This document shows, one piece after another, positions 2,061-59,076 of a stretch of 59,076 bases of DNA. How positions within the stretch are numbered: the stretch's first letter is position 1; each line of letters starts with the position of its first letter. Below the pieces are notes generated by a model. That model saw only the letters and a program-made list of their open reading frames with translations, was not told where the DNA came from and searched no databases. Where the stretch lies: the IMG/VR virus record IMGVR_UViG_3300025466_000037, positions 1 through 59,076 of that record. One strand, given 5' to 3'. The position numbers were made by a program, and so were the translations under genes. Source of the stretch: a virus.

Positions 2061-3026
2061 TTAATTACTCCTTTGTGAACGTGCTTCCATTGCATAACGC
2101 TTTATCATCTTTGCTCTCTTCTGGGGGTCATCCCAGAATCCTGCGTCCTTCATTGCTCTCACCTGTTCGGGGTTGAGTGTGAAGGTGTTACGGCCTGCAC
2201 TTGCCGCTGATGATTCACGTCCTGAACTCGTCACAACATTCCTAGGTCGTTGTCTAACTACAGGTTCATCGTCTGTGCTGTCATTGTATCTGTGCGGGAG
2301 ACGTCTTTGCAAGCGATTATCTAACTCATCCCAGTAGGCAGGATTCTTTGGGTCCCAACCCTCTTCGATCAGTCGTTTGTCAATAATCTTTGCAATCTCA
2401 GTATCCTCGTCACCGCTATCTGGGCTATACCAGTCATTACGTTTCATCCACTCTGCGGCGTTGCGCTGTATCTGTGGATCGGGCAGGCTACGGTCATTGT
2501 TTGGCTTAACCGCCTGAGTTTTCACGTTTTTCAGTGATTCGATCTTCTGTCTAGACTCGTACCACATCTCTTGCGCTTTAACCAAAGCCTCGCCATCACC
2601 CGCTTGAGTAGCCTCTTGAAGCTTGAGCTTGGCATATTGGAACTGAAGCTCAGCGTCCTCTATAGCCTTGTCAACCCTCGCTAATTCTGCGCCATGTGTG
2701 CGTCTTTCAACATTAGAGAGTCGTTCCATTAACTCACGGTTAACTCTTTCTAGTTGCTGAAGCTTGATATCCTTCTCGGCATGATCTTGCTTCGCTCTTT
2801 GACGGCGTAGTTTCCTACGGTTGATCTTCTCTTGACGTACCTCATCGGAGTCATCAGGATGATCGTTGTCCTCTGTTGAGGATTCTGCCTTGACACTTCC
2901 ACCTTCTGCTTCACTTTCGCTTGCATCGGGGCTTTTGATGTCATCTGGAAGGTCAACCACTGCTGAACCGTCCATCTCTTCTTTGACTTTTAAGTCTTCT
3001 TCTTTGCTTTCTGCTACTTCACTCAT
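2061..3026 (-). CDS. Probable scaffolding protein
   Basis: The 321-residue protein is very acidic at its N-terminus (residues 1-65). A long charged coiled coil follows (about 65-165, rich in E, K, Q, R and L), then a basic, Arg-rich C-terminal tail. Charged helical proteins encoded between portal and capsid genes are typically procapsid scaffolds that bind capsid protein through a basic C-terminus. No sequence-specific scaffold motif was identified, so the call rests on composition and position. The final 50 codons recur at the right edge of the window. Confidence 0.68.
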   Translation of the reverse strand: MSEVAESKEEDLKVKEEMDGSAVVDLPDDIKSPDASESEAEGGSVKAESSTEDNDHPDDSDEVRQEKINRRKLRRQRAKQDHAEKDIKLQQLERVNRELMERLSNVERRTHGAELARVDKAIEDAELQFQYAKLKLQEATQAGDGEALVKAQEMWYESRQKIESLKNVKTQAVKPNNDRSLPDPQIQRNAAEWMKRNDWYSPDSGDEDTEIAKIIDKRLIEEGWDPKNPAYWDELDNRLQRRLPHRYNDSTDDEPVVRQRPRNVVTSSGRESSAASAGRNTFTLNPEQVRAMKDAGFWDDPQKRAKMIKRYAMEARSQRSN

Positions 3027-3059: not shown

Positions 3060-3473
3060 TTACACATATTCCGCCATTGCTAACGGATCTCCTTTAACCC
3101 TAGAGATAACCTCGTGGTCGTTAAGAACCATAAACATGGCCTTATCTTCAACGTGATCTTCCCCAGGCACTGCAACTTCCCATCTATCCCCACCCCATTT
3201 AGGGACACGGATGTAATCACCCACCTTTACCCATGAACCTTCAGGCCAAGCCTCCATCGTGTCACGGTTACGGTAGGCCAACGGGCCAATCTCAATGACT
3301 TTTGCGACCATGTTCTGCCATTTTTCGTTCTCACGAGTTTCCTCGGCGAGAATAATGCCAGATGCGGTCATTTTCTTCTTCGTTCTCTTTAGTTGAACAA
3401 GTACTCGTGCTCCCAAAGGCTCTACACCTGCTTCTACAGCAGGAAAAGCCCATGCCAAGTCTGTATCACTCAT
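3060..3473 (-). CDS. groES: GroES-type co-chaperonin
   Basis: The 137-residue protein has the GroES fold signature: GARVLVQL (21-28) as the first strand, then a mobile loop with TASGIIL (36-42) matching the GroEL-binding GGIVL motif of bacterial GroES. VAKVIEIGPL and the VKVGDYIRVP turn follow. GroES caps GroEL and sets the folding chamber. Phage versions such as T4 gp31 adapt the host chaperonin to fold capsid protein, and here the gene sits in the head module, four genes from capsid. It is longer than host GroES (about 97 residues), with insertions after the mobile loop and at both ends. Its start overlaps the stop of the preceding gene by eight bases. Confidence 0.88.
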   Translation of the reverse strand: MSDTDLAWAFPAVEAGVEPLGARVLVQLKRTKKKMTASGIILAEETRENEKWQNMVAKVIEIGPLAYRNRDTMEAWPEGSWVKVGDYIRVPKWGGDRWEVAVPGEDHVEDKAMFMVLNDHEVISRVKGDPLAMAEYV

Positions 3474-3654: not shown

Positions 3655-3800
3655 TTTTTCTTACTTGTGTGAGCTAGGCCACTTTGTTTCTTCTGGCTTT
3701 CGCCTTTAGAACCCAAACTTGTCCCATCAAGCTTCTCGCCCTGGGCTAATCTCTTATGCATGGGCACGTTAATACCCTTTTGCTCTGCATCACTCGCCAT
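3651..3800 (-). CDS. Small basic protein after portal
   Basis: A 49-codon ORF begins MASDAEQKGINVPMHKRL and ends in a Lys/Ser-rich tail. It overlaps the portal 3' end by eleven bases and meets the next gene in an ATGA overlap. It has the tight spacing of its neighbours and fills an otherwise empty stretch, which supports it as a real gene. Function unknown. Confidence 0.6.
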   Translation of the reverse strand: MASDAEQKGINVPMHKRLAQGEKLDGTSLGSKGESQKKQSGLAHTSKKK

Positions 3801-6339
3801 GTTGACCTCCTAAGTGTCGTTGTGCTTCGTTTTGAAGCGAAATTGCAGTGTCATACTGCTCTTGCTGAAGCTTAGCGGCGTCTCGGGTGAGTTCCGCTGA
3901 AGCTATACGCTCTTTTGTCAGGTTATCAGTAGAGTTGATAGCTATATCTAACTCCCTTTGTGCCTGCTCTCTTTGTTGTTCGCTAGTAATCTTGGCCTGC
4001 TCAAGCTGTGTATCAGCCTGGATCTGCTGACCCTTGAGTGCCATCTCTTGCTTATCACGCTCGGTTCTGCGCTGTGTCTCAGCCATTGAGGTCTGGATGA
4101 GCGCTTGTGCGTCTGGATCAAGCTGTGGCTTGGGTGCAAACTGCTGTTGCATCTGGATAAGATGCTGAAAGTCTGGTACCAACTGTGCAAATACCTTCTC
4201 ACCTAAATCGTGACCAACGTGCTGTGATGCCATAGCAAATATCTGGTCAATCTGAGCCGTGTATTTTTCATTTTCGTACTGAATAGACTGCTTTCTGTCG
4301 CTTTGAGTAGCGTACTTTTTCATCATCTCAAGGTATAAGAGCGTGATGTGCTGTCTCAAATGCTCAATCATTGGCCCAATCAACTGCGGTCCGATAATCG
4401 GGTTCTGTCCTAGCAATGGGTTCATCACAAAGTCAAAGTGCCCTTGGATGTGAGCCAACTGATCTTGCTCAGGATAAGCAAACGCTCCCTGACCCAAGGA
4501 CATAGCCACGTTCTCTTCTGCAACATTGTGCTTATGTGGCTCAGCCGCATCAACCATTAACTCGTTAATGCCAGGCACCTTCATCTGCTTTAAGAATCTC
4601 TCAAGCACAGCCTTCTGGTTGAACTGGGCAGGATACTTATCCATCAGCGCCATTACGGCCTGAGACTGAGCCATCCTCTGCGTTTCAGAGAAGATGTGTG
4701 GATCAGAGACTGGAACTACATCTGTGTTGCGCTCAAAGTCTTGCTTGGTTATCTGCAAGTCCTTGACAATCTCACCCTTGCGCTGATCATCCAAGTACCA
4801 ACGGTTCAGCCTACCAAGAATCTTAAGCACTCTGGCTTGTGAGTCATGAAGTCTGGCGTGGATAGCTGAGAACACAGCAGATCCCTGCTCAATAAGGGCT
4901 TGTGTGGTACCTACAGGCGCTTGAGCGGTAACGTCAGCTATCTTCTCCTCAGCCGTGGTTACAACGCCCTTGGCGGCCTGATCTAACCACCCCAATAACT
5001 CAAATAGTACAGGGCTAGGAGGGTTAAAAGGCATAGGCATAGCGATTTGCCTAATGTCATTGATTCCTGGTCCTGCCTCAATTTCTGCAACTTGGGTAAC
5101 TTCAACTTGCTGAGATTGACCACTAACCTTAGCGCCTTTAAGCTTAAGCATAGTAGCGCTGTTGTTGATATGTGCAGTATCGAGCAAAGCACGAAGAGCG
5201 CCAGTAAGGGCGGCACTAAGACCGCCAATAAGATGAGGTAAACCAACTGCATATGCGCCCCTCCAAGGAATGAACTTGAACTCCACAACCCAGTCTAGCT
5301 TGGTCATGGTTTCGTCCCCGTCTTCCCAGTTACGATACAACCCGACAACTTCATGGTCTAAAGTGTCAATCATCAGAATATAAGGTGCCATCTCGCCCTT
5401 GGTATATTCGTCATCTTCCATCTCTAGCCAAACATAGGTGTGATAGAAACGTCTAACACCATCCTCGTTGTCTTGCCACTTCTTACCTTCAATCTTGTCG
5501 TTAGCCTTTTGTGCACCCGTTGGCTCTGGCTCCATAGTCGCACGGATCATGCTAATGTCACGGTACATACCCGACTTGATACGCATCTTGACTTCCCACT
5601 CGGTAATCTCGTGAACCTCAGTTGCACGCTGAGCGGTATAGAAGTTGGATGCGGCGAAGGGTACGATCACACGGTCAATCGGCAGAAACTCCACGCAGGG
5701 GCGCTTCTTGTGCTCGTCATACCACAGCTTAAGGTATTGGGAACCCCCAAGAGGAAGTTGGGTCAACAACTGCTCTTGTTCATCACGGAATTCCTCAATC
5801 TGCTCGGTGAGTTGCCAGTTCATGTAATCCCGTTTGCGCTCAGCACGTTCGGTCTTTACATCATCAACATCACCCAATATCTTTGTCCTGACTGGGCCAT
5901 CAGGTGGGAACATCTCTTTAATCGCTCTGGACGCAAAGTCTACGCAAGACTCAGCCATCACTGGGTGAACAACTTTAGAAGCTCCAAAGAAGGTCGCACC
6001 ACCTGGGCTATCGTTACCCATACCAGTACGTTTAATACCGTCCTCATACTGCTTATCCCGCATCTTACGGGCTTCTTTATCCTTCTCAATCAGGTTGATG
6101 TATTCAAGGGCTAATCCCTTAACATCAAACTCTTCAGCCAAGTTAGCGTAGAACTTTTTGTCATCAGTCGGGCCTTTGAAGTCTGGATCGTGAACAATAA
6201 CAGAACCATCAGGAAGCTCTTCAAGCTCCATATCCTCTGGTGGCATCTCAAAATCGACTGAGCCGTCTTCATTCTCAATCATTTCCATTCCGTCAATATG
6301 ACGGTTGTAGTCCTGCTCAATGGGCATTTGTGTTGCCAT
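3790..6339 (-). CDS. Portal protein
   Basis: The 849-residue protein is of the large portal type found in podoviruses. The portal is the dodecameric ring through which DNA enters and leaves the head. An acidic N-terminal 70 residues precedes a body rich in Trp and Tyr (for example SQYLKLWYDEHKKRPCVEF and VGLYRNWEDGDETM). The last 150 residues form a long Gln/Glu/Ala-rich helix of coiled-coil type, resembling the barrel of long portals. Gene order TerS-TerL-portal-scaffold-capsid supports the call. The start has an AGAGGATAAAC ribosome site directly behind the stop of the giant gene. Confidence 0.85.
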   Translation of the reverse strand: MATQMPIEQDYNRHIDGMEMIENEDGSVDFEMPPEDMELEELPDGSVIVHDPDFKGPTDDKKFYANLAEEFDVKGLALEYINLIEKDKEARKMRDKQYEDGIKRTGMGNDSPGGATFFGASKVVHPVMAESCVDFASRAIKEMFPPDGPVRTKILGDVDDVKTERAERKRDYMNWQLTEQIEEFRDEQEQLLTQLPLGGSQYLKLWYDEHKKRPCVEFLPIDRVIVPFAASNFYTAQRATEVHEITEWEVKMRIKSGMYRDISMIRATMEPEPTGAQKANDKIEGKKWQDNEDGVRRFYHTYVWLEMEDDEYTKGEMAPYILMIDTLDHEVVGLYRNWEDGDETMTKLDWVVEFKFIPWRGAYAVGLPHLIGGLSAALTGALRALLDTAHINNSATMLKLKGAKVSGQSQQVEVTQVAEIEAGPGINDIRQIAMPMPFNPPSPVLFELLGWLDQAAKGVVTTAEEKIADVTAQAPVGTTQALIEQGSAVFSAIHARLHDSQARVLKILGRLNRWYLDDQRKGEIVKDLQITKQDFERNTDVVPVSDPHIFSETQRMAQSQAVMALMDKYPAQFNQKAVLERFLKQMKVPGINELMVDAAEPHKHNVAEENVAMSLGQGAFAYPEQDQLAHIQGHFDFVMNPLLGQNPIIGPQLIGPMIEHLRQHITLLYLEMMKKYATQSDRKQSIQYENEKYTAQIDQIFAMASQHVGHDLGEKVFAQLVPDFQHLIQMQQQFAPKPQLDPDAQALIQTSMAETQRRTERDKQEMALKGQQIQADTQLEQAKITSEQQREQAQRELDIAINSTDNLTKERIASAELTRDAAKLQQEQYDTAISLQNEAQRHLGGQHGE

Positions 6340-6341
6340 GT

Positions 6342-9300
6342 TTATCCTCTATCGATTAATTCGTGACGCATAATATTTATGTTGTTAGTTATTTCAACCT
6401 TGGCTTTTTTGTTTGCCTTTTTAGCTTTAACCTTGCCACCCTTTTTCTGACCCGTGTACTTCTTGATCAAAGCATCATATCTGCCAACGTCATTTAAATA
6501 TTGATCATCAACAACTTGATGTGGAAATACTTTTTGAAGAGTTCCAGTAAAGTCTTGGGCACGTTTTGTATCAAGAATATGCTGAGTAGCGTCTGGAAAA
6601 GTTATTTGAACTGGCTTGGGAGGAGTTATTGGTTGTAATGCTAAACCTCGGATGCCTTTTTCATAAGTATTGTGATCAGCAGTATCCGTTAATTCAGCGC
6701 CAGGCACAACCTCACCCGCAGACAAACCCGTCATGTTAATTTGCATATTACGAAGCGAAGGTTCTGTAATAGCCCATTGAATATCTAATCCATTTGGTAA
6801 TCCATGAGCACTGGTAATCTCAGGAGTCTTCATCCTGCTGTTATACCATTTACGTAGTTCAGAATCTTTTTGCATGGCTTTGTAAGCGCCTTCTGGGTCA
6901 GCTATTCCAGGCCAGTGTGGAAAGTTGAAATGCTCGTATTCACCAGTCTTAGCATTTTTCTTTACAAATCCATTGGCAATAATGTTATCAAAGCTGTACA
7001 TCTGCTCTGGAGTCATTTTTGAAAAATCAGTAGCACGAAGATTTGCATCTGCTAAATGCATTGCAAAATTATTAGATGTAGGACCCATCGCTAAATGTTG
7101 AGCAATTACTCGATCAGGATCGTAATAACCTGCAAGTCTATTTATTTTGTCTTGAGCACTTTGAGCGGGATCTTCACCAGAAGCCCAAAAGTTTGGCAAT
7201 TTTAAATGTAACTTGCCCAATCCGTATTTAGCACCACCTTCCTGCTCTGAATCTATCCCTTCTATATCTCCAACACTATGCAATATACTGTCAGATATAG
7301 TTTGATCTCCAGGGAAAGCAATATTTACATCTCCAATCTTTGGTGTATATATATCAGGTTTTCCTGTAGGCTCTTTGGTTGTCAAAGAATAAGGTAGATC
7401 CTTAAGCCTTTGACTTTCCTTCATTGATCGTCCTGCAAGATTAACTTTCTTGGTAGATCCTTCAGGTACTACGTGCTCACCAGTCATTTGTCTAATGACA
7501 GGCTCTGCAATTTTCATCATCTCTTGATCATTTGGAGATTTTGCTCTTTTTAAATTTAAAGGCAAAAAAGATTCTTTAGACGATTTCTTAATAAAATCGC
7601 CCATTTTCTTGAGGACGGCATCAGTCATTACCCCACCCTCAGACATATGGATCTCGTGTCTCATCATCTCCAAATCATCCGCTACGTGGACTTTTCCACC
7701 TCTTTGGTAATTTGGCATGAACTCCAAAGGATTAAGCGTTACCTGCCCATTAGCCAGTCTTAATGATGGGTTTAAGAATGACTCATGCCTTGGCTGAGCC
7801 ACTTGTCCACCATCAGCATACGCAGGCAGACTGTTCTCTCCTACTCCTTGCTTCATCTCTGGGGTGAACTCCATGTAGTGCAGAGGAGTTGTCTTATTGT
7901 TTTGGGCAGTAGCGAAGTCATCCATCATCTTCTCTTTCTGCTCAAAAGGCATATCCAACCATGTTTGCTCAGGCGTATTGGTGTGCTGAAGCATATCAGT
8001 GATGGATAAGTCAGTGTTTTTTGGCGTACGTACTGGCATAGCGTTCAGCTTCATCTCAGCGCCGTATGGCTTACCAATGTCGTTGAAGACATTTGGTAGG
8101 CGCTTGTCATAAGCCTCCTTCATGCCTTCGCCTAAATACAAATCTTCACCTGTCAGTGACCGCAATGTTCCTTGTTGTGGCTGATCTAATAACTTTTTAG
8201 CCGCCTTCTTACCAACATATTGATTTAAATTTTTTGGTGTAACACCAGTTTGTTTTATGACCGTATTTCCATTGTGATCATAGCCAACTAAATCAGTACC
8301 AGACAAATGAAGTTCGTTTATGTATTTGCCAAGGTTATATCTATCCGCTTGCGTTTCACCATTAGTCAATGTTATGCCGTCATACCCATTGTCAACAGCG
8401 TGTTTGACCAAGTCCTTGCTAACCATCTCTTCCCAGTTCTTTTTGAATGGAGCATCAGGCACATGGTCAGAGGGCATGATGGTGGCATCACGAATCTGAT
8501 CCATGATTGCCAATCTTTGTTCGCTGATGGCTTCACGTTCTTCGGGAGTTTTGGCTAACGCTTTGACTTCACCAAGACGCTTATGCTCTGCCTTCAATGC
8601 GTTGATTGTGGCTTCTGCTTGAGCCAGTTTTTCTGGATCGTGATATCCCTTATCCCTACCTGCTTGATGCCAGTCAGACTGCATTTCCTCAACGTGGAGG
8701 ATCTTCTTGCCTTCTGGAGTCATGCGGTCAACAGTACGAGCATGAGCCAATACGTTTGGAATATCTTCCCAATGTGAGCTTTCATACTCCTCTGGATGGT
8801 TGGACAACTGGTACAAATGTTCCTGATAGTTATCACCACCAGGTAATTTATAAGAAGAATACCTTGGAATATTGTTATCAGTCTCTTTAAGATCATTGAC
8901 ATATGATTGAGCATCATGTCTTGTCATGAAAGGCTCTTCATTAACTTTTTGCCAATTCTCATCATACAACCAGTGAGGATCTCTTGGCCTTGCCATATCT
9001 GGATCAACTGGTTCTATGTAATATTTATCGGCGTTATTTTCGCTCAGTATCTTCTTAGTTACTTGGGGCACAGGACGCTTGGCAAGTTCAGCTTTGAACT
9101 CATCCTTCGTCATCTTGGGTAATGCTTTGATCTCATCCAAGTTTCTATCAGCCAATTCAGCCTTCTTAACGCCAGGCTTCTTGCTAAGCTCTGTCATGAA
9201 TTCAGCGCCAGTACCCTTGGCTCTTGGCAACTCAGCCGCAGTCTTATCCACAGCAGAGAATAGCCTAGCCATTCCCTTGCCAATCATCTTATCTACAACA

Positions 9301-11873
9301 CCACCGCCTGCAAATCCTTTGGGGCTATCCTTCATCTGGATCTCATGGCGCATCATATCCAAGTCATTAGCAACATGAACCTTGCGCTTAACTCTTCCGC
9401 CTTTAGCTAGGCCTTGTGTCTCTTGAGGGGTTACAGCAGGAACATCTCCTACTTTGTTACGCAGTTCATCAATTTTTCCAAGAGTATATAGTTGAGTTTT
9501 TAATGGATCACCTTCACCATGTTCTTCTGGATTGTTCAATACTGATTTAAATTCATTATATGTATAAGGAATATCTGGATGTAACGGTTGATTACTAGCA
9601 TTTCGTAATTTAGAGTATTGTTCTTCATCTTTGAAAAACATACCATTATTAAGAGCACTATTAAATACTTCATTCGCTTGGCGATGAGGTTCAAATGCAG
9701 GATGAGTATCTAAAAAATTGTTTGCGTTTTTAACCGTTGACTCAACATGAGGAGCAACTTGTTGGCGTAAAACATTTTCTTCGTCTTTAGTTAAATAATC
9801 TGGCACCTTTAAACCAATACTTTCTCCAAATTTTTTTAACTCAGGTTGAGTATTAACAAATCCAGAGTTTTGTATATCTCCTTTAATTGGAAATCCAGTA
9901 GTACGTTGGAAGTCTTGCACCATAGGCAAGTACTTATCTACAGGTGCTCCATTACCTTTGCCTTTAATTTGATGAATGTTTGGTGTTCTTGAGTTTGCGT
10001 TTAACTCCTCAAGCTTTGAAGCTATATATTTTTTTGCGCCAATATCTCCTCTTTTAAGAGCATCTGTTACTCCACCAGGGAATTGATCAAGCACATCATC
10101 TTCAGTATATATTTTTGGATTTCTAGCTTCAATTGTTACGTGAGGCTCACCACGCTTATCTCTTAATGAGAATATTCTTGTGTTGCCTTGCAATACGTCA
10201 GGACAATAGCCACCAACACAGTGACCCATCTTATCGCCTTCATATGTCAATGCGTCTTCAAGTTGTTTCTGACGCTCTTCTCTTTTGTAAAGATTAACAG
10301 CTTCTTCGGGAGTTGAGCCAACAGATACTGATTGACCAGTTTTCGAATCAATTACTGCATGAAGATCAGGATAACCAGAAGGATGACCCATAACATGGGA
10401 TTCTTCTATTTTGGGATCAGGCATCTTAAGCTCAATCCACTTGTGACCAGATGGATACTCTTTAAGAACAGGAAAGCCTTCTTGCTGTTGTAACGCTACG
10501 TTACGACTTGCAATATCTTTCTCTAAGTTTTGGTTAGCCACACGTTCCATCATCTGTGGAACGCTTATGTTCTTGAGTTGCTCAGGCTTGAGATGATACT
10601 TATCGCCTTCAGGCAAATCCAAATGCTGTTTGATCGTATCTACAACGTGATCAAAGCCAAGATCGTTAGCAAAGTTACGAGGATCAGATACTGAATAAAT
10701 ATTTTTATCTTTAAGACCCAAAAGCTCAGGCTGTTCTTTACTTATAGTTTTGTAATGCTGTTCATATGGATCGTTCAGTCTATTGCTATTAAGTCTATCT
10801 AAAGCATTGTCAGAAACAAACTCCCAAGCATTTGAAGGCTTTGTAGTTGACATACCTTCAAATCTAGAGATGTTATCTCCAAATCTAAAGTTTTCATGTG
10901 GTACATGAGCAGAATGCTTCATGCCCAACTCATAAGCATCTTCAGCTTCAATTGCCAAATTATCTCTGGCGGCCTGCATAGTTCTTACAGCACCTTCATC
11001 ACCAGATTGTTTGGCCTGAGCAATCTTCTCATCTAACTTAGCTATCTTCTTTTGCTCTTTAGCGTTGTTGGCCTCAACCTTGGCTACTCGTTCCTCAATG
11101 CCCAAGCGAATTGGGTCATGAGGTGTGGCCATATCATTACGAACATAATTTTTGAGGTTGGTATCAATCCATTGGTTTAATGCGCCAAGCTTCTTAAACT
11201 TATCTTTGTTATCTTCTAGATGTTTAACGACACGCAATCCACCTTCGCTACCTATATCTTTTAGCTCTTTGATTCGTTCTTCAACAGCTTTATCGTGTTC
11301 TGGGCCGTAATAATAAGTTTTATTCTTTAATAAGGTATCTTGTTTTAATTTATCTAAAGCAGAGTTAACCTGCTTATTTACCCAGTTACCACCCTTCTCA
11401 GGCTTGATAACGTGCATAGCCATCTGTGGCTCACCAACTCCAGGGATAAGTCGTTGACCAGTAGCAACCCTATCAGCAATCTCCTGCCCAAGCATCTTTG
11501 CACCCTTTGTGGCGGCTGTACCCGCTCCTGGGATAACAGCGAAGTCACCTGCTGTGCTTGCCATCTTGTTAAGCATTGAGTTGGGGTCTTTGGCTAGGTC
11601 AGGGATCAATCCCTTGATATCCTCAGAGCCACCAGATATAGATCCTGGCTGATATCCTTCAAACTTGTTACGGCGAATGTCGTGCGCCATATTGTGCAAA
11701 CCAATAGCTGTGTTAGCCAGATCAGCAGGCAATCCCGCTGTGGTGGCAATAGCACTGCGTCCACCAGAGTAGATCATGTCCAGTAACGCTCTAGCAGGTA
11801 TGCCCATGCTCATTGCATCGGCTTTGATTCTGTCTAGATCTAGGGGTTGTTGGTTTGCTTTAGGGTTTGGCAT
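6342..11873 (-). CDS. Giant polyvalent protein with PcfJ-like domain and triple MRHE[IL] tag
   Basis: This 1843-residue protein lies between the acyl carrier protein and portal genes. Around residue 549 it has MGHCVGGYCPDV followed by RIFSLRD and HQIKGKGN, the pattern of PcfJ-like domains. From about 1060 (HVEEMQSDWHQAGR, then DAPFKKNWEEM and NGYDGITLTNGE) it carries a domain familiar from phage polyvalent proteins. The third part (about 1410-1835) is not recognised. Each part ends with a basic GG stretch and a tag: HVANDLDMMRHEI near 840, HVADDLEMMRHEI near 1403, and NNINIMRHELIDRG at the very C-terminus. Polyvalent proteins are thought to be packaged and injected; that role is inferred here from family and position. 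The ATG at 11873 is preferred to a TTG at 11885, whose ribosome site is too close. Confidence 0.8.
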   Translation of the reverse strand: MPNPKANQQPLDLDRIKADAMSMGIPARALLDMIYSGGRSAIATTAGLPADLANTAIGLHNMAHDIRRNKFEGYQPGSISGGSEDIKGLIPDLAKDPNSMLNKMASTAGDFAVIPGAGTAATKGAKMLGQEIADRVATGQRLIPGVGEPQMAMHVIKPEKGGNWVNKQVNSALDKLKQDTLLKNKTYYYGPEHDKAVEERIKELKDIGSEGGLRVVKHLEDNKDKFKKLGALNQWIDTNLKNYVRNDMATPHDPIRLGIEERVAKVEANNAKEQKKIAKLDEKIAQAKQSGDEGAVRTMQAARDNLAIEAEDAYELGMKHSAHVPHENFRFGDNISRFEGMSTTKPSNAWEFVSDNALDRLNSNRLNDPYEQHYKTISKEQPELLGLKDKNIYSVSDPRNFANDLGFDHVVDTIKQHLDLPEGDKYHLKPEQLKNISVPQMMERVANQNLEKDIASRNVALQQQEGFPVLKEYPSGHKWIELKMPDPKIEESHVMGHPSGYPDLHAVIDSKTGQSVSVGSTPEEAVNLYKREERQKQLEDALTYEGDKMGHCVGGYCPDVLQGNTRIFSLRDKRGEPHVTIEARNPKIYTEDDVLDQFPGGVTDALKRGDIGAKKYIASKLEELNANSRTPNIHQIKGKGNGAPVDKYLPMVQDFQRTTGFPIKGDIQNSGFVNTQPELKKFGESIGLKVPDYLTKDEENVLRQQVAPHVESTVKNANNFLDTHPAFEPHRQANEVFNSALNNGMFFKDEEQYSKLRNASNQPLHPDIPYTYNEFKSVLNNPEEHGEGDPLKTQLYTLGKIDELRNKVGDVPAVTPQETQGLAKGGRVKRKVHVANDLDMMRHEIQMKDSPKGFAGGGVVDKMIGKGMARLFSAVDKTAAELPRAKGTGAEFMTELSKKPGVKKAELADRNLDEIKALPKMTKDEFKAELAKRPVPQVTKKILSENNADKYYIEPVDPDMARPRDPHWLYDENWQKVNEEPFMTRHDAQSYVNDLKETDNNIPRYSSYKLPGGDNYQEHLYQLSNHPEEYESSHWEDIPNVLAHARTVDRMTPEGKKILHVEEMQSDWHQAGRDKGYHDPEKLAQAEATINALKAEHKRLGEVKALAKTPEEREAISEQRLAIMDQIRDATIMPSDHVPDAPFKKNWEEMVSKDLVKHAVDNGYDGITLTNGETQADRYNLGKYINELHLSGTDLVGYDHNGNTVIKQTGVTPKNLNQYVGKKAAKKLLDQPQQGTLRSLTGEDLYLGEGMKEAYDKRLPNVFNDIGKPYGAEMKLNAMPVRTPKNTDLSITDMLQHTNTPEQTWLDMPFEQKEKMMDDFATAQNNKTTPLHYMEFTPEMKQGVGENSLPAYADGGQVAQPRHESFLNPSLRLANGQVTLNPLEFMPNYQRGGKVHVADDLEMMRHEIHMSEGGVMTDAVLKKMGDFIKKSSKESFLPLNLKRAKSPNDQEMMKIAEPVIRQMTGEHVVPEGSTKKVNLAGRSMKESQRLKDLPYSLTTKEPTGKPDIYTPKIGDVNIAFPGDQTISDSILHSVGDIEGIDSEQEGGAKYGLGKLHLKLPNFWASGEDPAQSAQDKINRLAGYYDPDRVIAQHLAMGPTSNNFAMHLADANLRATDFSKMTPEQMYSFDNIIANGFVKKNAKTGEYEHFNFPHWPGIADPEGAYKAMQKDSELRKWYNSRMKTPEITSAHGLPNGLDIQWAITEPSLRNMQINMTGLSAGEVVPGAELTDTADHNTYEKGIRGLALQPITPPKPVQITFPDATQHILDTKRAQDFTGTLQKVFPHQVVDDQYLNDVGRYDALIKKYTGQKKGGKVKAKKANKKAKVEITNNINIMRHELIDRG

Positions 11874-11907
11874 AGCACCTCGCAATATTCCTTTGAGTGT
11901 ACCCTTG

Positions 11908-12165: not shown

Positions 12166-12276
12166 TCACATAAAGCAGTGTTTGTTACCAATTCGACTCT
12201 TAAACCATAAAAAATGATTGTTGAACGATGATGTGGCGCTAACCCACAACTCCACCCCATCGCTATCATACCGCAT
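12166..12276 (-). CDS. Possible 36-residue ORF after terL
   Basis: This short reading frame starts inside the last codons of terL and fills much of the 120-base gap before the acyl carrier gene. No good ribosome site is visible and no motif is recognised, so it may be chance. Otherwise the gap 12142-12265 holds only the ACP ribosome site. Confidence 0.25.
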   Translation of the reverse strand: MRYDSDGVELWVSATSSFNNHFLWFKSRIGNKHCFM

Positions 12277-13711
12277 ATGGATTGACCCTTGGTTGGGGGT
12301 TGGCATCAATGTAATCTTCCTCATCGTAGTCTTCACGTGGAGGTGGATCAATGTTCAGGAATCCTGCGTCTCTAAGCCATCTAAGAGCCTGTGTGAGCGA
12401 ATCAACGTAATCGTCATGTGTTGCGTCAGGGAACGCACAGATCTGGCTTATAGCCCCTTCTGCCCAGTCCCTTACATATCCTTTGTTCATGCTTGACTCT
12501 GGCACCCAAACCCTACCTGCCCGTATGATATTGGCAACAATTGATAACCGCTGAACTTTGTCTGCCTTGCCTGGGTTGTAGCTTTGTACGGGTAACTGTG
12601 CCCTTTGCAAGTCTTGGATCAAGCTGATGCCTGCGGCTTTGTCCTCCACCAGAATCATCTCAACTCGCTTCTTATCCTTGCCCTCACCGTATACAGTCTC
12701 AAACTCATCCATCACCTTGGGCTTGAGATCTGGGTATTGCAGGTGGTCTTGCCAGGCATCGAGGATGAGCACTGACATCGGACCATCCATCGGTTTGAAT
12801 ACACCGAAAGTGATACACGCTGTTGGGTCATTGTGCGCCTTCTCAGTGAATGCACAGTCATAGCTTTGCAAGATGAACTCAAACTTGGGCAGAGGCATTG
12901 GCTCACCCTGAGAGTTGTAGGCAGGGAATAGTTTGAACCATTTGCGCTTGACGATACCTGTTAGCTCAGGGTCTAAGATCTCAGCCAACACCTCCTGGCG
13001 ATACAGTGCAGACTCAGGGTCGTACTGCTCGATCTGCTTGCGGAAGTTTGCTGATAGGTTGTCAATGTTGGCGTAGGTGGATGCTGTGGTCAGGGCTACA
13101 TCACTCCCGTTTCTACCTACCAGATCAACAATCAGATCTTTGGGCTTGGGCGTTGTCGTACATACAACTTGGGTCTTGTCTCCCAAACGGATGGAGAAGC
13201 TGAGCAGATCCCAGGCTTCCTGTAGATAATCCCACGCCGCCAACTCATCTAGCCAACCCCCGTGGAACTGTGGCCCCCTGAAGCGCTCAGGCTCCGATGC
13301 GGGTATGCCTTTGATGATTGAGCCGTTGATCAGGGTAATCTCGTTATCGTCCTTCAGGTGCTTCTTAATCAAGATCTGAGGTATGACGTTGGTCAGTCCT
13401 GAGTCACCCATAAAGCACACATCCTTCAGGTCTGAGTGTGTTGGCGCTCCAACTAGCCACCGAGTCTTGGGATTAGTCCAAGCCTTCCAGAACGTCCACT
13501 CTGCCGCAAGCCTAGTCTTCCCTGCGCCCCGTCCACCGAGCACCATCCAAATAGACCAGTCCCAACTCGGGGGAACCTGGTGATCATGGGCAATACTCAG
13601 CCACTTGATCCTTGCGGCGTAAGCCATCTGCTCTTCAGGTGGGAGTACAGCGAAGTGAGCCTTCACCTCGGGGTCGGTCAATATCTCTATGACCTCATCA
13701 AGATCCTGCAT
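12266..13711 (-). CDS. terL: Terminase large subunit
   Basis: The 481-residue packaging motor ATPase/nuclease has a Walker A motif GGRGAGKT (59-66), an acidic Walker B-like WLDELAAWD and the coupling motif CTTTPKP. The C-terminal nuclease half contains QSYDCAFTEKAHNDPTA, ILVEDKAAG and HDDYVDS, the acidic residues expected in RNase H-like TerL nucleases. It moves DNA into the procapsid through the portal and cuts concatemers. It overlaps the terS stop by fourteen bases. Length and motifs look complete. Confidence 0.93.
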   Translation of the reverse strand: MQDLDEVIEILTDPEVKAHFAVLPPEEQMAYAARIKWLSIAHDHQVPPSWDWSIWMVLGGRGAGKTRLAAEWTFWKAWTNPKTRWLVGAPTHSDLKDVCFMGDSGLTNVIPQILIKKHLKDDNEITLINGSIIKGIPASEPERFRGPQFHGGWLDELAAWDYLQEAWDLLSFSIRLGDKTQVVCTTTPKPKDLIVDLVGRNGSDVALTTASTYANIDNLSANFRKQIEQYDPESALYRQEVLAEILDPELTGIVKRKWFKLFPAYNSQGEPMPLPKFEFILQSYDCAFTEKAHNDPTACITFGVFKPMDGPMSVLILDAWQDHLQYPDLKPKVMDEFETVYGEGKDKKRVEMILVEDKAAGISLIQDLQRAQLPVQSYNPGKADKVQRLSIVANIIRAGRVWVPESSMNKGYVRDWAEGAISQICAFPDATHDDYVDSLTQALRWLRDAGFLNIDPPPREDYDEEDYIDANPQPRVNPYAV

Positions 13712-27018: not shown

Positions 27019-27214
27019 TAAAGACGAATTCCAAGAATGGTTTGATGACGAGAACTTACCCCCTGAACTGGAAGACTTTTGTTGGAATATCTGGCAAATA
27101 GCCTTCAGGGCAGGTGGTAAGCAACCTTGGTACTCACTTAGCCGTCAGCAATGGGAAGTAATTAATAAAAAATTTAAGGAAAACAATGACAACAGTAATC
27201 GCAAGAGCAAGTGA
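27002..27214 (+). CDS. Small protein between SSB and exonuclease
   Basis: The 70-residue protein is acidic and Trp-rich in its first half (FQEWFDDENLPPELEDFCWNIW) and ends in a basic tail. The second ATG (27002) has GGAGG six bases upstream. It overlaps the SSB-like gene before it and the exonuclease gene after it, so it is probably co-translated and may be a partner of that module. Confidence 0.55.
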   Translation: MAHHSDKDEFQEWFDDENLPPELEDFCWNIWQIAFRAGGKQPWYSLSRQQWEVINKKFKENNDNSNRKSK

Positions 27215-27953
27215 GTCCCAACACTGGTACACCCAGGAAGGAATGCCACAATACACAGTCACCGCTAAGAACGGTACACAGCGCAATACCACGTTGCGTG
27301 ATGCAAGGACTATGAAGCTAGTCCCCTCGGTCAGTACGATCATTGGTTGCGCCGCCAAGCCTGGACTGGAGGCGTGGAAACTCAACCAGATGATGCTTGC
27401 CTGTATGACCCTACCCAGGGCTTCAGATGAGTCGGAGGAATCCTACATCGAGCGGGTTAAGCATGACTCCAAGGAGCACGCCAGAAAAGCGGCAGAGCGG
27501 GGTACAGCCATTCACGGAGCCTTAGAAAGTTTCTATGAGGGCATTATGCTTGCGGAGTTCCTAGACTACCAAATGGGTGTATCTAAGGCCGTAGAAGCTC
27601 ATTTTGGGGCTTGTGAGTGGTTAACTGAGCGATCCTTTGCCTTTGAGGGATACGGTGGCAAGTGCGATATGTACACCAAGCAGGGAGATGGAATCGTTAT
27701 TGACTTTAAAACCAAGGAGTTTGGTCCAAATGACAAGGTAGAAGGCTATGACGAACATCGAATGCAACTCTCAGCCTACCGCAATGGATTAGAAGTGCCT
27801 TATGCTAGGTGCGCTAACGTATTTGTGTCTGTTTCTAACCCTGGCCTAGTCAGAGTTGTGGAGTGGACGCAAGAGGAACTTGAGCAGGGTTGGCAGATGT
27901 TTGACGCTCTCAAGACATATTGGCAAATTAAAAATAACCATAAGGTGATGTAA
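27186..27953 (+). CDS. PD-(D/E)XK exonuclease, Cas4/RecB type
   Basis: The 255-residue nuclease has GTAIHGALE (His110), GGKCD (Asp161), VIDFKTK (Asp173, Lys175) and QLSAYRNG (Gln194/Tyr198). These are the ordered motifs of the RecB/Cas4 PD-(D/E)XK family. It is likely the phage recombination exonuclease, giving single strands for the SSB-like protein encoded upstream; RusA would resolve the junctions. It lacks the four-Cys iron-sulphur cluster of true Cas4. No CRISPR array is in the window. Confidence 0.82.
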   Translation: MTTVIARASESQHWYTQEGMPQYTVTAKNGTQRNTTLRDARTMKLVPSVSTIIGCAAKPGLEAWKLNQMMLACMTLPRASDESEESYIERVKHDSKEHARKAAERGTAIHGALESFYEGIMLAEFLDYQMGVSKAVEAHFGACEWLTERSFAFEGYGGKCDMYTKQGDGIVIDFKTKEFGPNDKVEGYDEHRMQLSAYRNGLEVPYARCANVFVSVSNPGLVRVVEWTQEELEQGWQMFDALKTYWQIKNNHKVM

Positions 27954-56849: not shown

Positions 56850-57764
56850 TTACACGCCAGGTGTACCGAAGAGCGCTCTAGGATCTGTCCATCCTATTGC
56901 ATAACGCTCAGTTGCTTTATAGCGCATAGAGTCAGTCTCGAAGTCACCTTCCATAGTCTTCTCTAAACGTCTACGCATCAACAGCTTCATACCTTCTGGT
57001 GCGTCTGTCTGTACCCACCATGCGGTAGATGAAGTCAAACGGCTCAGAACAGCGGCACCCTCATCCAATAAGCCAATAGACTTAACGGGGTTGATGTCGT
57101 TGTTTGCTGTACCAGTACGTAAAACTGACTTGAGCAACACTTCAGCTTGGAAAATATTGCCTGGAGCCACAACCAACTGGCGTGGTACCAAACGAATTTT
57201 CTTCTGGTTGTTGTCAACAGCGTTACGAATCTGAATCAACATTTGCTCTAAAGAAGTCTGTGACAACACTGCGGCTGTAGACAACTGGTTAGAGAAAGTG
57301 CCGTTCACGATTGGGTGTGATGCGCTGATTAAAGATACGCCGTCGCCACCAACATAGTTGGAGTTGAAAGCGTTATTGAGCACGTTTGCCGCTAAAGTCT
57401 CTTTTGTCTCAATCAAAGACTGAGCTAAGTGACGAGCGTAAACTTGACCAATACGGATATGGTCGCCGTCTTCTACCAACACCTTTGTCAATGCAAAGGC
57501 AAGCCCATACACTGAGTAGATATAGCGTTGGAGGAAGAGCACACCACCTTGCTGATAAGACACTGGAGTGCCATCAGGAAGTTGGGGAGCGGCGCCAAAT
57601 CCATAAAGGACTGGCTCTTCGTGGTAGTTACGTGGAATACCTTCTTGTTCACGGAAAACACGTGACCATTCGTCTTCACGGAGATCGTAAACGCCATCAA
57701 AACATTCGTTAAGAATCGGTTCGACAATACTTCTAAAGTCCGTACTTCGCATTGGTGCGGCCAT
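56850..57764 (-). CDS. Major capsid protein (complete copy)
   Basis: The 304-residue protein has an HK97-type capsid layout. An N-terminal helical arm (STDFRSIVEPILNECFDG) leads to a long helix near LIETKETLAANVLNNAF, then SHPIVNGTFSN, LVVAPGNIFQAEVLLKS and MLLMRRRLEKTMEGDFETDSMRYKATERYAIGW-type strands in the P domain. The order scaffold, two head genes, then this gene, and the terminator behind it fit the most abundant virion protein. The partial left copy differs by few residues. Confidence 0.85.
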   Translation of the reverse strand: MAAPMRSTDFRSIVEPILNECFDGVYDLREDEWSRVFREQEGIPRNYHEEPVLYGFGAAPQLPDGTPVSYQQGGVLFLQRYIYSVYGLAFALTKVLVEDGDHIRIGQVYARHLAQSLIETKETLAANVLNNAFNSNYVGGDGVSLISASHPIVNGTFSNQLSTAAVLSQTSLEQMLIQIRNAVDNNQKKIRLVPRQLVVAPGNIFQAEVLLKSVLRTGTANNDINPVKSIGLLDEGAAVLSRLTSSTAWWVQTDAPEGMKLLMRRRLEKTMEGDFETDSMRYKATERYAIGWTDPRALFGTPGV

Positions 57765-57774
57765 AATTTACTCC

Positions 57775-58356
57775 TTATGCAAATGCTGTTACGCTACCAA
57801 ACATCTGAGATGCGGCTACGACAACACGAACAATAGTGTATGAATCGCCCCAAGCATTGCCTGGAACGGGCGAAAGGTCAACAACACGCATCTGACCTTG
57901 GGTGTTATTACCAACTGCTGTAGAAGCGCCTAGTGTCGCTTGTGACAGACCTGTAGTAGTAGAACCGTTAGTTATGTTGGTGAAGTTGTACTCATTACCG
58001 ATAGCGGTTTGAGCGACTGAACCGTCTGCTTGGATTTCATAAACGATGTTGTTGTCGTTATAGAAATAAGCAATACAAGATCCAGTAATGTAAGTTGTAC
58101 TGGCAGGCCAGTAGTTAGATACACGACGACGACCTGTAGAGTCAGTCCACTCAACACCCGCAAACGCACCAGAGAAAGCTTCTGTGGTAGCTACGGGAAC
58201 GATTACACCTGCTGACGCAGAGTATTTAACTGGTTGACCCTTCAAAATGTTTGAAGAGTAGCCAGAAGTGATTCCTCCTGCTAACGCCTGAGCACGATCC
58301 AAGCCTGATGGATGGAACGCAGGGCGTAAACCGAAGGGTTGCAATAATGCTGACAT
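57775..58356 (-). CDS. Head-associated structural protein (right copy)
   Basis: This is the second copy of the 193-residue protein at 912-1493, with AGGAG before ATG 58356. It has V in place of C in the SGAFAG(V/C)EW segment and several S/A, M/V and S/T exchanges. It is complete and probably equivalent in role, next to the complete capsid gene. Confidence 0.75.
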   Translation of the reverse strand: MSALLQPFGLRPAFHPSGLDRAQALAGGITSGYSSNILKGQPVKYSASAGVIVPVATTEAFSGAFAGVEWTDSTGRRRVSNYWPASTTYITGSCIAYFYNDNNIVYEIQADGSVAQTAIGNEYNFTNITNGSTTTGLSQATLGASTAVGNNTQGQMRVVDLSPVPGNAWGDSYTIVRVVVAASQMFGSVTAFA

Positions 58357-58381
58357 ATGCAAAACTCCTTTGTTACTTCAC

Positions 58382-58921
58382 CTACCCAGAAAATACGGGT
58401 GCGGGAAGCGGTTCATCAATCTTGCCAATACCTTCACCTTCTAGTCTTCCTAGTGCCTTGCCGTTACTATCACGACCCATTGTTTGCTCTGCTTGGATGC
58501 GAATTTTGTTCGCTTCCTCAAGAGGCATATCATGGTGGAAATGTTGCATAACCTCCTGATACACATCCATAGGGATCTTGTACAGTAACATTTCATTGCA
58601 AGACACAAATCCAACGTGCTCACCTGATTTGACTTTGTGGCTTTCGAAATGGGGTACTTCCTCAGTCTTCACTGGGACGTATCCAAGACGAACCCGCTTG
58701 TCAATGCTGTCATATGAGTTGGTAGTGGATAACCAACAAACGTGCCAACCAGGGATTTCAGGGACATCTGGCAATGCTCTTTGTGTCCACTCATCACTCC
58801 ACATCTTGCGACGTTCCTGTGCTGAGACGAACTTCTCTTCTGGGGCTTGGCGGGATTCATCTTGCTGAGCACGATTCTGTCTACCGCCTGCATTCAAAGA
58901 TTTTTTTAAACGTGATTCCAT
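58382..58921 (-). CDS. Conserved head-module protein (right copy)
   Basis: This is the second copy of the 179-residue protein at 1519-2058, with five or so conservative replacements and many silent changes. Intact frame and start. No domain recognised. Confidence 0.7.
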   Translation of the reverse strand: MESRLKKSLNAGGRQNRAQQDESRQAPEEKFVSAQERRKMWSDEWTQRALPDVPEIPGWHVCWLSTTNSYDSIDKRVRLGYVPVKTEEVPHFESHKVKSGEHVGFVSCNEMLLYKIPMDVYQEVMQHFHHDMPLEEANKIRIQAEQTMGRDSNGKALGRLEGEGIGKIDEPLPAPVFSG

Positions 58922-58923
58922 AA

Positions 58924-59076
58924 TTAGTTACTCCTTTGTGAACGTGCTTCCATTGCATAACGCTTGATCATCTTTGCTCTCTTCTGGGGGTCATCCCAGA
59001 ATCCTGCGTCCTTCATCGCTCTCACCTGTTCTGGATTAAGCGTAAAGGTATTGCGGCTTGCGCCTGCCGCAGATGA
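58924..59076 (-). CDS. Scaffolding protein, partial (right copy)
   Basis: This is the C-terminal 50 codons of the scaffold-like protein, cut by the window edge. It encodes the same basic end (MKDAGFWDDPQKRAKMIKRY...) as the complete gene at 2061-3026. Confidence 0.7.
   Translation of the reverse strand, partial: SSAAGASRNTFTLNPEQVRAMKDAGFWDDPQKRAKMIKRYAMEARSQRSN

Follow-up and report, generated by a model that had tools for sequence, protein, structure and literature searches.

A recurring peptide tag at the ends of unrelated protein modules encoded between the terminase and portal genes of a phage lineage

Introduction

The closest described counterparts of the locus analyzed here are the polyvalent proteins of phages (Iyer, Burroughs and Aravind 2017, PMC5512222). 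These are large and multi-domain, are encoded near late genes, carry ART-PolyVal, GNAT or other effector domains, and are predicted to be packed into the virion and injected. Short peptides that direct proteins into the capsid are represented by the capsid targeting sequence of the T4 internal proteins and the signal of P1 DarB, both of which are N-terminal; the DarB packaging signal spans under about 30 residues, and its authors report that the Dar proteins of P1 show no consensus by BLAST (PMC9024508). Cargo is also stored in the virion of crAss001, where part of one cargo protein is bound to the portal and a helical segment is bound in the tail barrel (PMC10172136). Little is known about how phages select the effector proteins that travel in their particles.

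Here we describe a three-module giant protein encoded in a 59,076-nucleotide stretch of viral DNA (IMG/VR record IMGVR_UViG_3300025466_000037, positions 1 to 59,076; hereafter the window). Its gene lies on the minus strand, which a preliminary description of the locus had left unstated. The protein resembles polyvalent proteins in being multi-domain, in its position among late genes and in the presence of ART-PolyVal in tagged neighbours. It differs from them in that a conserved, lineage-specific peptide ends its modules, no inter-module tag being mentioned in the consulted portions of PMC5512222, and it differs from many of them in lacking a metallopeptidase motif, a common although not obligatory component. 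Unlike the N-terminal signals of T4 IPIII and P1 DarB, the tag is located at C-termini and module boundaries and lies near the N-terminus only in some neighbouring genes, and unlike the P1 Dar proteins, the carriers of this putative signal share a clear consensus while being otherwise unrelated. The crAss001 cargo, from a different phage order, has no short common tag in the consulted portions of PMC10172136. We found no published description of the tag in the open-access literature.

Results and discussion

A giant ORF with three copies of one tag

The giant gene is located among late and virion genes, between those for the terminase large subunit (TerL) and the portal (Table 1). Its reading frame can be opened at a TTG or at an ATG at 11873, the latter giving an ORF of 6342-11873 and 1843 aa; because a good ribosome-binding site (GCGAGGTGCTATG) accompanies the ATG, this codon is preferred and is likely the true start. 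The MRHE tetrapeptide begins at residues 845, 1408 and 1839 of 1847 in TTG numbering, equivalent to 841, 1404 and 1835 from the ATG. The ORF translation thus confirms the earlier report of three [KR]GG[KR]V…MRHE[IL] copies in a single ORF, the last of them at the true C-terminus. By our estimate, about 0.003 occurrences of MRHE are expected by chance in a single protein of this size, and the tetrapeptide is absent from every other window ORF of at least 80 codons.

Table 1. Coordinates of the giant gene, its tags and modules, and the neighbouring genes in the window.
Feature	Position	Strand	Description
Three-module giant protein	6342..11885	minus	1847 aa from TTG; between TerL and portal genes
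Tag 1	9339..9404	minus	KGGRVKRKVHVANDLDMMRHEI, aa 828-849 (TTG numbering)
Tag 2	7650..7703	minus	RGGKVHVADDLEMMRHEI, aa 1395-1412 (TTG numbering)
Tag 3, true C-terminus	6345..6443	minus	KGGKVKAKKANKKAKVEITNNINIMRHELIDRG, aa 1815-1847 (TTG numbering)
Module A, with PcfJ-like domain	9405..11885	minus	aa 1-827
Module B, unnamed domain	7731..9275	minus	aa ~871-1385; matches polyvalent-type phage proteins
Module C, unnamed domain	6444..7568	minus	aa ~1440-1814; own gene in other lineages
Terminase large subunit	12266..13711	minus	upstream border of cargo slot; PHROG terminase matches
Portal protein	3790..6339	minus	downstream border of cargo slot; PHROG 1216 portal, E=2.6e-19
GroES-like co-chaperonin	3060..3473	minus	Pfam PF00166; synteny
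Acidic protein	2061..3026	minus	scaffold-like position between GroES and MCP; synteny; no named family

Several distinct domains are joined in this one polypeptide. Module A contains a PcfJ-like domain at aa 545-589 (window 10119-10253; Pfam PF14284, E=2e-6), and its relative in phage DSL-LC04 carries a PcfJ-like annotation, while modules B and C are separate families that elsewhere also form separate proteins. The structural model of module B (mean pLDDT 73) matched phage proteins annotated as GP88, ART-PolyVal(-like) or large polyvalent protein associated. Compared with the PDB, the same model gave nothing at E<0.001 and weak GNAT-like matches only, the resemblance to GNAT acetyltransferases having E above 0.1; the module B sequence profile had no match in the PDB. 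The module C model (pLDDT 51) was too poor for structure search, and poxvirus matches of its profile in the PDB were at chance level and were dismissed. A Pfam search with alignments of modules B and C returned chance-level matches only and no named family.

The tag has a wider consensus

In IMG/VR homologues of the giant protein, the same tag marks the ends of further modules as well as C-termini. A wider consensus, in which a GG-x-V turn is followed by a variable spacer and [DNS]-x-D-x-M-[R/M]-x-[E/A]-L, recurs at C-termini and between modules in dozens of contigs from related lake phages. Variants of the tag include MRHE, MRLEL/MRLAL and MMLEL. The repeats of the preliminary description are therefore real, but its choice of MRHE[IL] as the core was too narrow: the conserved core is wider, and MRHE[IL] is the form that DxM[R/M]x[E/A]L takes in the window's own sublineage. 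The concern raised there, that the tag might be missing from the C-termini of related proteins, did not materialize, as it is present both in IMG/VR homologues and in related loci.

Tags were scored with a 13-position matrix trained on 24 C-terminal tag cores, at a cut-off of at least 10 bits. In related loci, 225 matches reached this cut-off in 108 distinct contexts, compared with 0 in the reversed proteins, the best of which scored 8.4. A chance-like match in the window gene at 27162-27950 was discounted as a tag, as was a conserved MLDxMRSAMTK stretch that also scores in the matrix. Helix prediction for the tag was of low confidence, and an amphipathic helix for the core was unsupported by the hydrophobic moment at 100 degrees. 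Copies near the N-terminus are found in some upstream slot genes (L032:5300-5953 and L037:474-2045; MSKPKPSMDQMRLALTKG, MNKPNIDQMRLALLNKGG), and the motif is thus not strictly C-terminal.

Tagged genes lie almost exclusively in the terminase-portal slot

Nine related phage records place the tags between TerL and the portal; a single outlier, a 1212-aa protein of G003, scores comparably. A tag-like peptide, LLDTMREELRKHKRSAP, occurs close to the C-terminus of the non-slot proteins G003:C1:35331-38966 and G002:C1:11383-12816. Two scans by the tag DNA pattern alone, in which module sequence was not used, fetched further contigs, and a tagged gene occupied the slot wherever lineage markers were present; contig L131, fetched in the same way, contained neither marker nor tag. 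In a sample assembled by portal homology, which overlaps the matrix training set in some contigs and so is not fully independent, the tag was present in 29 of 89 slot genes but in only 2 of the 985 remaining genes (Fisher p=1.5e-31); of these two, one actually lies directly between TerL and the portal. The enrichment in this sample extends to slot genes that lack modules B and C (14/45, p=1.2e-18), and among shuffled slot proteins, used as a control, about 1 of 68 was tagged.

The order terminase, cargo, portal, GroES, acidic scaffold-like protein and major capsid protein (MCP) is kept across the related phage records, and the terminase-cargo-portal-GroES-MCP order of the window is shared by two deposited phages, ctpbd312 (MW202545) and DSL-LC04 (OR003939). 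For the tag, the cleanest out-of-sample example is the slot protein of ctpbd312, a phage retrieved by portal homology: a GP88-like module replaces A, B and C, and the tag is both internal and at the C-terminus. The PcfJ-like cargo protein of DSL-LC04 is untagged despite the same synteny, and the tag is absent from pelagiphage slot proteins. No cargo gene occupies the slot of Caulobacter phage RW or of Planktothrix Pag-Yong1, and both are uninformative about the tag. Tagged cargo is missing from the closest cultured phages by portal, among them RW and other Caulobacter phages and Roseobacter CRP-901. More than half of the slot genes have no recognized tag, many of them ending in GG-type tails. 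Two slot genes (L276:6453-7298 and L299:8002-8826) share a different tail, GG...DxSKLVIQKHxSG before the stop, perhaps another tag class, and the tails in L235 and L239 read GGxVSGLSxL. The GroES-like gene at 3060-3473 is a constant neighbour in the lineage, between the portal and scaffold-like genes.

One tag follows many unrelated modules

The modules that precede the tag are unrelated and include PcfJ, ART-PolyVal (PF18760, present in tagged neighbours), GP88, ASCH, DUF6973 and two unnamed domains. The stretches separating the tags group into 25 clusters, with the same tag found after different segments in different phages. Conversely, one module can be followed across genomes: module B is tagged in 51 of 53 proteins of the phage lineage versus 5 of 45 in other genomes, the latter being weak matches (p=1.8e-19), which indicates that the tag follows the virion lineage and not the enzyme.

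This pattern bears on two readings of the tag. In one, it would dock to a target other than the capsid, either gathering the modules into one complex after injection or attaching them to a host target. The use of one motif across many unrelated effector modules, with several copies per protein, would suit such a role, yet the tag tracks the virion gene lineage instead of the effector and is nearly confined to portal-adjacent genes, and we regard this reading as unlikely. In the other, the tag would be a structural linker cap that is required for giant proteins to fold and has no partner. Its position in linkers and at ends is what a cap would predict; restriction to one slot of one phage lineage is not, and the same module is found without the tag in other genomes, leaving a cap quite improbable.

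The modules are also found joined and separated. In L044, module B (538 aa, ending in DRMKYELANRKG directly before the stop) and a GP88-like module are encoded by adjacent in-frame genes that both end in a tag, while in L074, L028, L046 and L067 the same two modules are fused into a single protein, the tag marking their junction. Two genes share modules B and C in L139-L156, where the B protein has a C-terminal tag; stand-alone module B proteins retain the tag in L044, L140, L146 and L194. The proposal that once-separate tagged modules were fused in frame is accordingly supported, as B, C and the GP88-like module are separate in L044 and L139-L156.

The stand-alone proteins are equally pertinent to the earlier suggestion that the tag is a protease site, with a phage protease cutting near MRHE/L to free separate effectors in the particle or the host. 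The tags do lie exactly between modules, in linkers of low model confidence, and there is precedent in the processing of P1 DarA and DdrB and in the metallopeptidase that polyvalent proteins often contain for such processing (PMC5512222, PMC9024508). Single-module proteins encoded by their own genes nevertheless keep the tag ~5-13 residues from the C-terminus, where a cut would free nothing; some genes have it close to the N-terminus; and the residue preceding the would-be cut is either E or A. The window protein has no HExxH metallopeptidase motif, and no peptidase was recognized among the scanned window proteins, many of which are unannotated. Retention of the tag by stand-alone proteins and the lack of a recognized protease among the scanned window proteins disfavour cleavage, and we consider it improbable.

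The first slot gene of L139-L156 (for example, L140:5120-8569, minus strand) has a conserved ending of its own, GGxxxGDDLILEERPL followed by the stop, after unrelated modules. We did not count GDDLILEERPL as a second tag, since, as judged from the gene overlap, the following gene probably has its ribosome-binding site in the codons for the last of these residues; the GDDL part of the ending is likewise conserved.

Selection acts on the peptide

The arginine of MRHE is encoded by CGT, CGC, CGA, AGA and AGG. Comparison of A-B-C protein orthologues gives pN/pS values of 0.14-0.19 in the tags, 0.30-0.34 in the linkers and 0.48-0.49 elsewhere, so that constraint on the residues is strongest within the tags while their codons diverge freely. 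Arginine codons spanning CGN and AGR, together with the lowest pN/pS in the tags, indicate that selection acts on the peptide.

These data address the possibility that the motif is a by-product of DNA features, namely a recombination site for module exchange or an overlap with the next ribosome-binding site. Some observations point in that direction. The linker-tag cassette that follows module B in the window reappears in L079, at 72% DNA identity, where it makes up the C-terminal end of another protein. The portal ribosome-binding site is supplied by the last codons of the giant gene (AGA GGA TAA AC ATG), and the C-terminal residues past the core (RG, KKAK or LKRK before the stop) overlap the portal ribosome-binding site, stop and start; as these trailing residues encode the ribosome-binding site, they were excluded from the signal. 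The internal tag copies, in contrast, are not followed by a gene start. An internal translation start after tag 2 was considered and rejected, as the SD-like stretch and ATG of the window copy are missing in relatives. For the tag core, the by-product explanation is largely refuted by the codon data, and overall we consider it very improbable.

A putative docking tag for cargo loading

A docking tag best accounts for the combined observations: the carriers are unrelated effector-type proteins, their slot lies by the portal, the tag is linked to the virion lineage, and selection preserves it on every module. We propose, with a probability of about 0.5, that the tag sits on polyvalent cargo delivered by the virion and binds a lineage-specific assembly partner, which would constitute cargo loading. 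The giant protein would then be a polyvalent-type cargo protein built of independently evolving modules, each with its own copy of the tag, and the genes between terminase and portal would be the lineage's cargo slot. The partner onto which the tag docks might be the procapsid, the scaffold or the portal, with loading of whatever module is attached; entry into the procapsid is the most likely role of the tag. The effectors would ride in the particle, enter the host with the DNA and act there. Modules travel between phages with their tag and are joined or split at it, and fused proteins thus keep internal copies. The acidic protein in the scaffold-like position is, speculatively, a candidate receptor.

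A role as a packaging signal is consistent with the near-exclusive location in the slot and with the attachment to domains of polyvalent effectors, as read from sequence. Extending the loading proposal, the tag may be a portable consensus encapsidation signal for any slot cargo, one copy per module permitting free fusion, splitting and exchange; we hold this form of the proposal tentatively, as possible but somewhat short of even odds. Several observations stand against loading: more than half of the slot genes have no recognized tag, several tags per polypeptide exceed what loading needs, the predicted helix is of low confidence with a core that is not amphipathic, and a few tag-like matches fall outside the slot. 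Since the cargo in the DSL-LC04 and pelagiphage slots is untagged, loading there would need other signals. If a docking tag for loading is correct, a consensus shared by many unrelated modules would make the question of effector selection directly testable, the sequences of uncultured phages would suffice to predict which effectors the virion delivers, and phage particles used for protein delivery could be loaded by way of the tag.

Probable hosts and genome ends

Several contigs with tagged slots (L157-L159, L161 and L194) are binned as betaproteobacteria (Burkholderiales, Rubrivivax and Thiobacillus), which suggests betaproteobacteria as hosts of the tagged phage lineage. The ends of the window, 1-2213 and 56864-59076, form a gap-free repeat of 2213 bases whose copies are only 93.5% identical, the 143 differences being scattered along it. 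It looks as though the contig had joined its own ends across two strains present together; counted once, the repeat leaves a genome of about 56.9 kb.
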